From: Hyphomicrobiales bacterium | Lineage (GTDB): Bacteria > Pseudomonadota > Alphaproteobacteria > Rhizobiales > Rhizobiaceae | DNA length: 36,157 nt | Assembly (NCBI GenBank): GCA_024224595.1 | Contig: JAAENI010000303.1 | Location: 1-36,157, forward strand | Direction: 5' to 3' | Part shown: positions 14,881 to 18,795 of the stretch, piece by piece | How positions within the stretch are numbered: position 1 is the first letter of the stretch | Layout of the letters: each line of letters opens with the position of its first letter | Position numbers and translations under genes: made by a program | The notes under the pieces: model-generated | The model's database searches: none | Told to the model about the DNA's origin: nothing | What the model saw: only the letters and a program-made list of their open reading frames with translations

Positions 14881-15680
14881 CAGTGGGCTACCCCCAGATA
14901 CGCATCTATAACATTTTGATCGGCCTGCACTTGGGCTGGCAAGCCATCAGCAATTTTTTTGCCGTAATCCAGTACAACTATTCGATCCGCCAGATCCATC
15001 ACCACTCCCATATCATGCTCGATCAGTGCAATAGTTGTGCCAAATTGCTGATTGACGTCGATAATGAACCGGCTCATATCTTCTTTTTCTTCCAGATTCA
15101 TTCCGGCCATCGGCTCGTCCAACAATAATAAAGAAGGCTCTGCAGCAAGTGCCCTTCCAAGTTCAACCCGCTTTTGCAATCCATAAGGTAGTTGGCCGAC
15201 GGGTGTCTTGCGAATTGGTTCGATTTCAAGAAAATCTATGATTTCCTCTACTGCACGCCGATGTTCAATTTCTTCGTTCAGCGCAGGGCCATATCTGAAC
15301 ATCTGCCAAAAGAAATTCTTGTGCATTTTCAGTGAGCGACCGGCCATTATATTATCCAACGTCGACATGCCGGCAAATAATGCAACGTTCTGGAAAGTAC
15401 GCGATATACCCTGACAGGCCGCCATATAAGGACGCATTTTGCGACGCTCTTCACCCAGAAATGTAATCGTGCCTACCTGTGGATGATAAAATCCGTTGAT
15501 GACATTCAACATGGAAGTCTTACCGGCACCATTTGGACCAATAATTGCCCGAATTTCGCCTTTGGTAATATCAAAAGAGATATCCTGAATGGCCTTCACG
15601 CCACCAAATGACAATGAAATATCATCGACATGCAAAAGTTCTTCGCCAGTGGCGATATCAGCAACGGTTTTGAGACTCAT
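14880..15680 (-). CDS. ABC transporter ATP-binding protein (LivG-like)
   Basis: GPNGAGKTSMLNVINGFY, GISRTFQNVALF, LLLDEPMAGMN. Confidence 0.94.
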   Translation of the reverse strand: MSLKTVADIATGEELLHVDDISLSFGGVKAIQDISFDITKGEIRAIIGPNGAGKTSMLNVINGFYHPQVGTITFLGEERRKMRPYMAACQGISRTFQNVALFAGMSTLDNIMAGRSLKMHKNFFWQMFRYGPALNEEIEHRRAVEEIIDFLEIEPIRKTPVGQLPYGLQKRVELGRALAAEPSLLLLDEPMAGMNLEEKEDMSRFIIDVNQQFGTTIALIEHDMGVVMDLADRIVVLDYGKKIADGLPAQVQADQNVIDAYLGVAH

Positions 15681-17671
15681 TCAGCAGCCTCCTTATGAGT
15701 AGCCGCAGCAAATTTCTTTACGTCGCGTATTTCGACCGTTGCCGAAATATTACCTTTGCGGCCGTCCTCAAATATGACCTCGGTATCAACGTACTTTTGC
15801 GTTGAACCATCATAAATTGCTTCAATCAGAGGTGCATAGCGTTCTGAAATAAAACTTCTCCGTACTTTCAATGTTCGGGTTAATTCGCCGTCATCAGCAT
15901 CCAGTTCTTTATGCAATACGAGGAACCGGGCGATTTGGGAGCCTGCCATCATCTCTTCTTGAGATAGATCGCGATTGACCTGTTCGATATGCTCTTCCAT
16001 CATTTCATAGACCTGTGGATGAGCCGCCAGTTCCTGGTAACTGGCATAGGAAATGTTGTTGCGTTCAGCCCAGTTGCCAACAGAAGTCAAATCAATATTG
16101 ACGATTACGCCACAAAAATCGTGCCCATCACCAAAAGCCACGGCTTCCTTCACATTCGGGAAAAACTTGAGTTTATTCTCAATATATTTGGGCGCAAACA
16201 ATGAACCATCATTCAACTTTCCAACATCTTTTGCCCGGTCAATAATTCTCAAATGACCGTCATCATCAATGAAACCAGCATCACCGGTATGGACCCATCC
16301 ATCCTTGGTTTTTGTTTCTTTGGTTGATTTATCGTTTTTATAATAACCCACAAAAACACCTGGGGAACGATACATAACTTCGCCTGAATTAGCGATTTCA
16401 ATTTCTACACCCGGCGTTGGTCGACCAACAGTTTCTGCACGAATTTCACCATCGGGTTGCGCAGAGATATATACGGAAGCTTCTGTCTGGCCATAAAGCT
16501 GTTTGAGGTTCAAACCCAGTGAGCGATAAAATTTAAAAATCTCGGGCCCAATGGCTTCACCGGCGGTATAGGCGACCTTCACATTGGTAAAGCCCATCCG
16601 ATTCTTGAGCGGACCGTAAACCAACAATTCACCCGCAAAATATTTTAACCGGTCAACAAACGCCACGTTGTCGCCATTGAGAATTTTTTCTCCGAACTTG
16701 TTGGCGTGATCAAGAAAATAGTGAAACATTTTTTTCTTGAAATTCCCGGCATCATCCATTCGAACCATAATTGCCGTTAGCAGATTTTCAAATACACGTG
16801 GCGGGGCAAAGAAATAAGTCGGTGCAATTTCCCGTCTGTCTTCATCAACTGTTTCGGCGCTTTCAGGGCAGCAAACACAATAACCGGATGCAAATGCCTG
16901 ACCATAGGAAAATACATGATCGCCAACCCAGGCAAGCGGCAGATAAGCAACGACCTGCTCTTTCTCGTCAAATTTGTCAAATTCGTTGGCACTAATTGCT
17001 GTTTTGACCATGTTATCATTTGACAACATTACCCCTTTCGGGCGACCTGTTGTGCCGGATGTATATAACATGACAGCAAGATCACTGCCTTTGGCCTTGT
17101 TGATGTCTTTTATCCATTTTTCGCCTGCATTAGCGGCTAACAACTCTTCTCCCAATTTTTGTACTTCGACGAACGAAATGAGATTATCAGCCTCATAATC
17201 CCTCATCCCCCGATTTTCATCGTAAATGATTGTCTTGAGCGATTTCAGTTTGTCACCCATTGATAGCACTTTGTCGACCTGCTCCTGATCCTGGCAAATT
17301 GCCATGATCGTTTCGGCATGTTCCAGAACATATTCCATCTCTTCGGCAATCGAATCAGAATAAATTGGTACGGGCACAGCTCCCAATGCCTGCGCTGCAC
17401 AAAACGTCCAATACAGTCTGGGCCGATTGCCTCCAATCAATGCGATTTTCTGACCCTTTTTAAGGCCAAGCTTCTTCAATCCAAGTGAAAATGCGCGAAT
17501 TTCATCGTGCATCTGTAACCAGGTCCAGCTTTGCCAAATACCAAAATCCTTATGGCGCATAGCCGGCCTATCGGCAAAACGTTTGGCATTGAGAAGCAAA
17601 TACTGTGGAAAGGTGTCAAGCGCATCATTAGAAAGCCCTGCGCCACGCACTTCAAGTTTATCTGAAGACAT
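15677..17671 (-). CDS. Long-chain acyl-CoA ligase (AMP-forming)
   Basis: YTSGTTGRPKGVMLSN and DGWVHTGDAGFIDDDGHLRIIDRAKD; start placed at MSSDKLEVRG preceded by GGGAGGAG. Confidence 0.92.
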   Translation of the reverse strand: MSSDKLEVRGAGLSNDALDTFPQYLLLNAKRFADRPAMRHKDFGIWQSWTWLQMHDEIRAFSLGLKKLGLKKGQKIALIGGNRPRLYWTFCAAQALGAVPVPIYSDSIAEEMEYVLEHAETIMAICQDQEQVDKVLSMGDKLKSLKTIIYDENRGMRDYEADNLISFVEVQKLGEELLAANAGEKWIKDINKAKGSDLAVMLYTSGTTGRPKGVMLSNDNMVKTAISANEFDKFDEKEQVVAYLPLAWVGDHVFSYGQAFASGYCVCCPESAETVDEDRREIAPTYFFAPPRVFENLLTAIMVRMDDAGNFKKKMFHYFLDHANKFGEKILNGDNVAFVDRLKYFAGELLVYGPLKNRMGFTNVKVAYTAGEAIGPEIFKFYRSLGLNLKQLYGQTEASVYISAQPDGEIRAETVGRPTPGVEIEIANSGEVMYRSPGVFVGYYKNDKSTKETKTKDGWVHTGDAGFIDDDGHLRIIDRAKDVGKLNDGSLFAPKYIENKLKFFPNVKEAVAFGDGHDFCGVIVNIDLTSVGNWAERNNISYASYQELAAHPQVYEMMEEHIEQVNRDLSQEEMMAGSQIARFLVLHKELDADDGELTRTLKVRRSFISERYAPLIEAIYDGSTQKYVDTEVIFEDGRKGNISATVEIRDVKKFAAATHKEAAE

Positions 17672-17800
17672 CGTTTGGTATTCTCCTCCCTTGTGGCCAT
17701 CTGAGATATTGTCAAAGCCAACAGTTTTCCCAGCTGTTTGACAGCGCAACATCCTACCCATGCTCAATTTTCCAGAGCCTGACACCGGTACGGATGATAT

Positions 17801-17861
17801 GTGACAAATTTTTGTGTTTAGCACAACAGTTTTGTCACTAACCATTTGGTATTAGACCAAA
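17801..17861. promoter_or_regulatory. Two adjacent dyads upstream of the acyl-CoA ligase/liv operon: GTGACAAA-n22-TTTGTCAC with inner TTGTG-TTTAG-CACAA, and TTTGGT-ATTAG-ACCAAA
   Basis: Exact inverted repeats read at 17801-17838 and 17845-17861, 130-190 bp upstream of the predicted start. Confidence 0.4.
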
Positions 17862-18014: not shown

Positions 18015-18278
18015 CTAGTGGATTATTCGAGACAAAAGGAACCCATAGACGGTTATCCAGGTTCATCGGGTAGGCGCGTGATGTGCAGTGGTGCTGGCAC
18101 CATAAACATCGTGCAACACCCCCGATGAGCATGGATAACCGCCCTTCGGGTCCAATATATCGGCTTTTCGCTGCGTCGTGCTTTCTTGAAGGTGGCCCGA
18201 ACCGCCTACGAAAGCACTTCTATCGAGAAACGGGTATATTGGATCTATGGGTTTCTTTTGTCTCGAACAATCCACTAG
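18015..18278 (+). repeat. 264-bp nested inverted-repeat element (34-bp imperfect terminal inverted repeats enclosing two hairpins); MITE-like or structured RNA
   Basis: Left arm CTAGTGGATTATTCGAGACAAAAGGAACCCATAG (18015-18048) pairs with right arm CTATGGGTTTCTTTTGTCTCGAACAATCCACTAG (18245-18278), 32/34 Watson-Crick; inner hairpins at 18051-18140 and 18150-18244. Confidence 0.85.
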
Positions 18279-18285
18279 AGATTGC

Positions 18286-18795
18286 ATGGCCGATATCAGA
18301 CAACCTAACACAGCACTGCACGAGAGACTGCGTAGCGCATTTGGCAGTTATGTAACCGGGGTTACTGTAGTCACTGCCCGCACTGACAGTGGTGAGCCTG
18401 TCGGATTTACCGCGAACTCATTTACGTCTGTTTCACTTGATCCGGCATTGCTGTTGGTCTGTGTGGGGAAAAATCTTTCAAGTTATCAGGTGTTTTCTAC
18501 GACTGGTAGTTTTGCTGTGAATATTCTTGGCAGTGATCAAAAATTACTGGCCAATCGATTTGCCAGATTTAAGGGAAATCGTTTTGAGGATGTGGAATGG
18601 CAGTATAGTGAATTGCATTGCCCCCTGCTTGCTGGCAGCTGTGCCTGGTTTGATTGCCGTGTATTTAAACGTGTGGATGCTGGTGATCATGATGTTTTGA
18701 TCGGGCAAATTCACAATTTTTCCGATCATGGCGAAAATGGTCTAGGATATTTTCGCCATGAGTTTTTTTCAACAGACCGTCGGATTCTTACCTGA
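18286..18795 (+). CDS. Flavin reductase-like domain (FMN-binding split barrel) protein
   Basis: YVTGVTVVTARTDSGEPVGFTANSFTSVSLDPALLLVCVGKNLSSYQVF... is classic flavin reductase; start placed at MADIRQPN because the upstream ORF codons lie in the inverted repeat. Confidence 0.9.
   Translation: MADIRQPNTALHERLRSAFGSYVTGVTVVTARTDSGEPVGFTANSFTSVSLDPALLLVCVGKNLSSYQVFSTTGSFAVNILGSDQKLLANRFARFKGNRFEDVEWQYSELHCPLLAGSCAWFDCRVFKRVDAGDHDVLIGQIHNFSDHGENGLGYFRHEFFSTDRRILT
18727..18769 (+). terminator. Apparent intrinsic terminator inside the 3' end of the flavin reductase CDS
   Basis: Perfect 12-bp stem CATGGCGAAAAT/ATTTTCGCCATG with a 10-nt loop, followed by AGTTTTTTTC. Confidence 0.6.

Follow-up and report, generated by a model that had tools for sequence, protein, structure and literature searches.

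An IS630-type mobile element carrying two inverted hairpin modules that may act as folded RNA

The 264 bases at positions 18015-18278 of the window, the whole stretch of 36,157 nucleotides analysed here, form, to judge from their sequence, a mobile element that is non-autonomous and of IS630/Tc1-mariner, not IS5, type. With moderate confidence, we explain them as a MITE with IS630-type mobility that carries two head-to-head hairpin modules, the module acting as folded RNA, and within this explanation the window copy is an older, diverged member of the group termed type I. The element apparently represents an undescribed family of MITE-borne inverted hairpin pairs found in many alphaproteobacterial genomes. 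The original prediction had offered either a MITE or a structured RNA, and the best answer appears to be both. Evidence for the MITE half comes from three dispersed copies with terminal inverted repeats (TIRs), from TA flanks and from ends common to a known transposase family; the RNA half is supported by family-wide covariation and a single-strand bias, and the function itself we infer.

Structure and position of the element

The element is a nested palindrome whose limits had been predicted exactly to the base. Of the 35 positions in its arms (18015-18049 and 18244-18278), 33 are complementary; the arms enclose two hairpins, and the TIR core occurs twice in the window against zero occurrences expected by chance. 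The left terminal inverted repeat (18015..18049, plus strand) reads C, then TA at 18016-18017, presumed to be the target copy, and then GTGGATTATTCGAGACAAAAGG; its right counterpart (18244..18278, minus strand) has TA at 18276-18277. Between them lie hairpin module A (18049..18142, sense on the plus strand), the central linker CCCTTCGGG (18142..18150) and hairpin module B (18151..18243), a diverged inverted copy of A whose sense strand is, by homology, the minus strand. The linker is the counterpart of the family's conserved CCTTCGG, which is the same in most elements of alignment A2 (described below).

In the predicted plus-strand fold, the outer stem carries hairpins A and B and, between them, a tiny hairpin formed by CCCTTCGGG, and this mini-hairpin makes the proposed three-way junction formally a four-way one. 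Both strands of 18005-18288 fold far more stably than dinucleotide shuffles, with a minimum free energy (MFE) of -151.5 kcal/mol for the plus strand against -81.4 +/- 4.9 for the shuffles (z -14.2) and of -141.3 kcal/mol for the minus strand (z -11.8); none of the shuffles reached the native MFE on either strand. The window copy has 9 G.U pairs when the plus strand is folded, in agreement with the earlier count of about nine, and 6 when the minus strand is folded, which correspond to six A-C oppositions on the plus strand rather than the two counted before. From one copy (9 versus 6) a strand argument is weak, and it became testable only once relatives were known. A tRNA/tmRNA scan found none.

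Upstream lies a divergent host gene for an AMP-binding (acyl-CoA synthetase-like) enzyme (15677..17845, minus strand; PF00501, E 4.2e-67), and downstream a flavin reductase gene (18286..18795, plus strand; PF01613, E 6.7e-42). The flavin reductase ATG (18286) stands 7 bases past the end of the element, which probably therefore lies in the 5' leader of this gene, where the window copy would have inserted. This spacing, together with a copy in contig C482 that also stops shortly before an ATG, is what would be expected of an immobile cis-regulatory RNA or attenuator of the flavin reductase gene. However, the same-genus genome G001 has both neighbour genes and an alignable spacer without the element, and copies elsewhere adjoin unrelated genes. 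We consider such a reading extremely improbable and a cis-regulatory origin already refuted; an acquired effect on the flavin reductase gene is possible. The syntenic site in G001 lacks the element, but the spacer has diverged so far that it does not locate the junction base-precisely.

A search of the host genome, as had been proposed, revealed two more full copies, in contigs C482 and C207, with identities of 84% and 79%. Blastn found the type I element in none of the 100 relatives searched, and neither type I nor type III elements (see below) gave blastn matches in plasmids and phages.

Ends, target site and mobilisation

The arms tie the element to a known transposase family. The left end of ISAr1-like IS630 elements is matched by the first 24 bases of the left arm at 92% identity and by the first 25 bases of the right arm at 96%. 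Since both arms are left-type ends, the element did not arise from the IS by simple internal deletion, and its interior, unlike the arms, has no relation to the IS and recurs in elements with entirely different arms. When 85,462 species genomes were scanned for TAGTGGATTRWTCGAGACAA, 16 stretches were found, most of them the left ends of IS elements of about 1.15 kb with a DDE_3 transposase, which plasmid annotation assigns to the IS630 family and in some cases to the ISAr1 family. In ISAr1-like IS630 elements of Mesorhizobium, Agrobacterium, Neorhizobium and Asticcacaulis, the same 20-mer forms the left end.

TA is present at both ends of 41 distinct full family elements (cTAg in 17, cTAa in 6, others besides), a duplication that was read from the flanks and not from a base-precise empty site. 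CTAG is the commonest flank, and the outer bases are often unequal between the two ends, which rules out the 4-bp IS5-type (YTAR) duplication suggested in the original prediction. An IS5-type element, in which the 4-bp CTAG would be duplicated at both ends, was rejected; the signature is instead the IS630/Tc1-mariner TA inside CTAG, in line with the arm matches. The IS630-family element ISY100 inserts at TA and duplicates it (PMC2170065), and a preference of IS630 for TA in CTAG is cited in the reference list of that paper. An IS630/Tc1-mariner-type transposase, now or formerly, would act on the TIRs and insert the element at TA, preferably within CTAG. Movement by such a transposase is well supported for type I; for types II and III, the TA flanks suggest the same.

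In the host genome, a 926-contig draft, a search run without a positive control gave no protein match to an ISAr1-like transposase, and two DDE_3 fragments of other kinds were present. Type II and III arms were absent at 17 DDE_3 loci of the host and its relatives and matched no IS, and comparison of the arms of eight other types with plasmids, in search of IS ends, gave nothing usable. The complete genome G099 held no autonomous element, only full dimers and internal-deletion products, and no pair of half elements flanking a gene. The module was likewise absent from type I-like ends in other genomes of the order and from ISAr1-like loci. In G096 and G001, IS630 genes adjoining a single-module copy at first resembled an autonomous element, a reading that was rejected: at L174:2606-2769 (G096) the IS630 starts at the CTAG end of the single-module element and is therefore read as a later insertion. 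This arrangement suggests that these elements create new IS630 landing sites.

A wider family with a conserved interior

Through a weak match of hairpin A, a second group with a high copy number and different arms (types II and III) came to light in the host genome. Type III was matched in 13 of 150 relatives (E <= 1e-6), mostly at full length and in complete genomes among them; these relatives probably belong to the order Hyphomicrobiales, class Alphaproteobacteria, as indicated by those IS carriers that are named and by the organisms ranking among the best protein matches of a window gene. Thirty such elements make up alignment A2, in which hairpin B can be read as A inverted and diverged. 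In G099, 18 full copies at 84% or more stand beside many decayed ones.

A covariance model (R1) was built from 29 A modules, all from other, differently armed elements and none of type I. Applied to the window with filters off, R1 recovered hairpin A on the plus strand (65.0 bits, E 1.1e-13; 21 bits antisense) and hairpin B on the minus strand (27.6 bits, E 1.6e-4; 16.5 bits on the plus strand), and it had no matches in 74 kb of non-member control loci. Among about 384 additional genomes of the class, it found the module in at least 11, a lower bound obtained with strict filters and with at most ten candidates scored per genome; two of the 11 (G391 and G578) were counted without a check by eye. 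Eight of the 11 genomes have both modules on opposite strands about 8 bp apart, and the arms in these class genomes are unrelated in sequence. The module, of about 95 bases, has conserved internal loops (consensus AAGGC opposite AACG) and a capped stem GTGGTC/GACCAC followed by AAG, and these interior loops are kept across many families while the flanking stems are rewritten.

The route through Rfam that had been proposed yielded nothing: no match to Rfam 15 above the gathering threshold was found in the window and 12 loci, and a permissive search gave weak chance matches only. Four pattern matches in viral contigs included no module. The literature searched held no description of the family, which is not proof of novelty.

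Several variants of the layout were observed. Single-module forms, either arm-A-arm (about 164 bp) or arm-B-arm, occur for example at L135 (C207:14720-14883) and L130 (C703:5525-5687) and may be either ancestors or deletion products. In three G001 copies (L138, L151 and L162) CCTTCGG is replaced by a linker 12 bp longer, CCTGAGCCGTGGTTTTTGGGG in two of them and one base different in the third. Type III occupies at least 40 places in the host genome (L104-L137, e.g. C809:18171-18438 and C469:1943-2209), many at contig ends, and probably causes part of its fragmentation into 926 contigs; such copies may account for some assembly breaks in genomes of this kind.

Covariation and single-strand constraint

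Of the 84 pairs in the complete element, 60 have changed on both sides. Since the arms must match anyway as TIRs, the structural claim rests on the modules. Among the 29 A modules, 24 of 36 pairs have changed on both sides. This amounts to 153 cells, compared with 43.6 +/- 7.8 after shuffling and 18-33 in slid registers; shuffling leaves relatedness in, and the slid registers keep relatedness yet fall far short.

Under selection for DNA pairing alone, equal numbers of G.U and A.C cells would be expected. Hairpin A instead has 88 G.U against 22 A.C cells (52 against 21 without two conserved wobbles, p 4e-4), and hairpin B shows the reverse, 12 against 40 (p 1e-4), as predicted from its inversion; these p-values are optimistic because the cells are not independent. 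The reversal in B runs opposite to the bias expected of a structure computed on the plus strand. The outer arms, with 23 G.U and 27 A.C cells, have no strand bias. In an alignment-free comparison with one element per genome, the own strand folded better than its complement in 21 of 21 A modules and 18 of 20 B modules. The corresponding counts for type I copies are 2 of 3 for A and 0 of 3 for B, the window's B among the failures, and the window copy may thus be partly decayed. Selection therefore seems to act on a single strand. For hairpin A this is the plus strand and for hairpin B the minus strand; neither strand of the outer arms is constrained. This strand rule differs from the one originally suggested, in which pairing looked preserved on the plus-strand RNA.

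These data also bear on whether the element is a purely selfish palindrome, in which pairing arises from template switching (quasi-palindrome correction) and TIR matching and the interior has no function. The outer arms change together between genomes without strand bias, as TIRs must, and the frequent internal deletions and solo ends are signs of palindrome instability. Such correction would be strand-blind, however, yet A and B are biased to opposite single strands, and the interior loops are conserved across many families despite their rewritten flanking stems. We regard this possibility as already disfavoured and quite improbable.

Genomic setting and possible function

By simple ORF calls, 20 of 50 elements end exactly at the stop codon of a neighbour and none at a start, compared with 7 of 50 CTAG sites elsewhere in the same flanks that coincide with stops. 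CTAG contains a stop codon, and insertion there keeps the stop on both sides, since the first base of the element is G and the last is C. The location at gene 3' ends fits read-through RNA, but it also follows from CTAG targeting. Convergent neighbours outnumbered divergent ones 19 to 5, not significantly so against a local control of 10 to 6.

Our preferred reading is that the module's role lies in RNA made by read-through transcription. As modelled here, with a hairpin module of roughly 95 bases present twice, head to head, in the interior, transcription from either side would first meet a correctly folded module whichever way the element had inserted, because the modules are inverted. At gene ends, the module RNA would protect, terminate or insulate transcripts that read through, and with read-through RNA handled there, insertions would be tolerable. 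That the module works as a folded RNA is what the covariation and strand bias suggest. More tentatively, and as a possibility we would not yet call probable, the module may be an undescribed functional non-coding RNA conserved across the Alphaproteobacteria, carried as a head-to-head pair in MITEs whose ends were swapped between IS630-type transposases, and acting independently of orientation.

The strand bias itself does not separate RNA from single-stranded DNA, in which G.T wobbles are tolerated too. The same mobile element could thus carry modules that fold as single-stranded DNA, on the lagging strand or during transposition, and are recognised by a protein in the manner of attC or REP hairpins. 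One sense module per strand would suit replication in either direction, and the unbiased outer arms (23:27) are compatible with this. Yet the ends on which IS630-type transposition acts are double-stranded (PMC2170065), the neighbourhood of the modules yielded no partner protein gene, and the gene 3' end location fits read-through RNA, with the proviso on CTAG targeting given above. We judge a DNA role unlikely, and retain folded RNA as the preferred reading.

If the modules are functional RNAs, they would constitute a class-wide structured RNA missed by Rfam, perhaps because it resides in repeats, and would explain how small mobile elements become harmless at gene ends.

Relation to known repeats

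MITEs are usually short-lived, genome-specific deletion derivatives whose interiors decay fast. The present family reverses this logic, in that the interior is old and conserved and the ends change. With the IS630/Tc1-mariner MITEs, here with an ISAr1-like mobiliser, the element shares TIRs, TA in CTAG, a non-coding interior and dispersed copies. Integron attC sites and REP-RAYT hairpins also conserve structure over sequence and have a preferred strand; the likeness is one of working style only, since the module has TA flanks and no integrase or RAYT link. REP/RAYT (REPIN) elements, GTAG-tagged hairpins of 20-40 bp, were considered and rejected, the modules being about 95 nt long with TA ends and lacking GTAG at the foot of the hairpin.

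Correia repeat enclosed elements (CREE) of Neisseria are short and non-coding, with TIRs that begin TATAGTGGATTAA (PMC5039591). Their ends share the 9 bases TAGTGGATT with the window arm, which may reflect convergence or an old transposase link, but they differ in host class and interior. RIME of Rhizobium and Br-REP1/2 of Bradyrhizobium are palindromic intergenic repeats from hosts of the same bacterial class. In 3'-UTRs, Br-REP1 is found among three stem-loops (PMC5082802); its consensus CCGGAATCTCGAGATTCCGG is absent from the module consensus. Br-REP1/2 are different repeats. RIME1 and RIME2 (Rhizobium intergenic mosaic elements) are cited in PMC2873474.

Solo ends and adjoining repeats

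The host genome also contains about ten solo type I ends, comprising the terminal 14-34 bp, whereas a reversed control pattern occurred 0 times. Their outer end is fixed and their inner end ragged, and in one of them 27 bp of one arm is joined to CCACTAG; they would be deletion products of an unstable palindrome. Three (L030, L019 and L042, in C251, C894 and C405) span gene stop codons, and two of these sit just upstream of the next gene's start, where a residual regulatory effect is possible. In the flanks of L044 and L034 (C894:40681 and C195:140), solo ends of type I lie directly against type III ends and against a further repeat beginning CTAGCAGGCTGTCGGACTT, likewise starting at CTAG, which is likely to represent a third repeat family.
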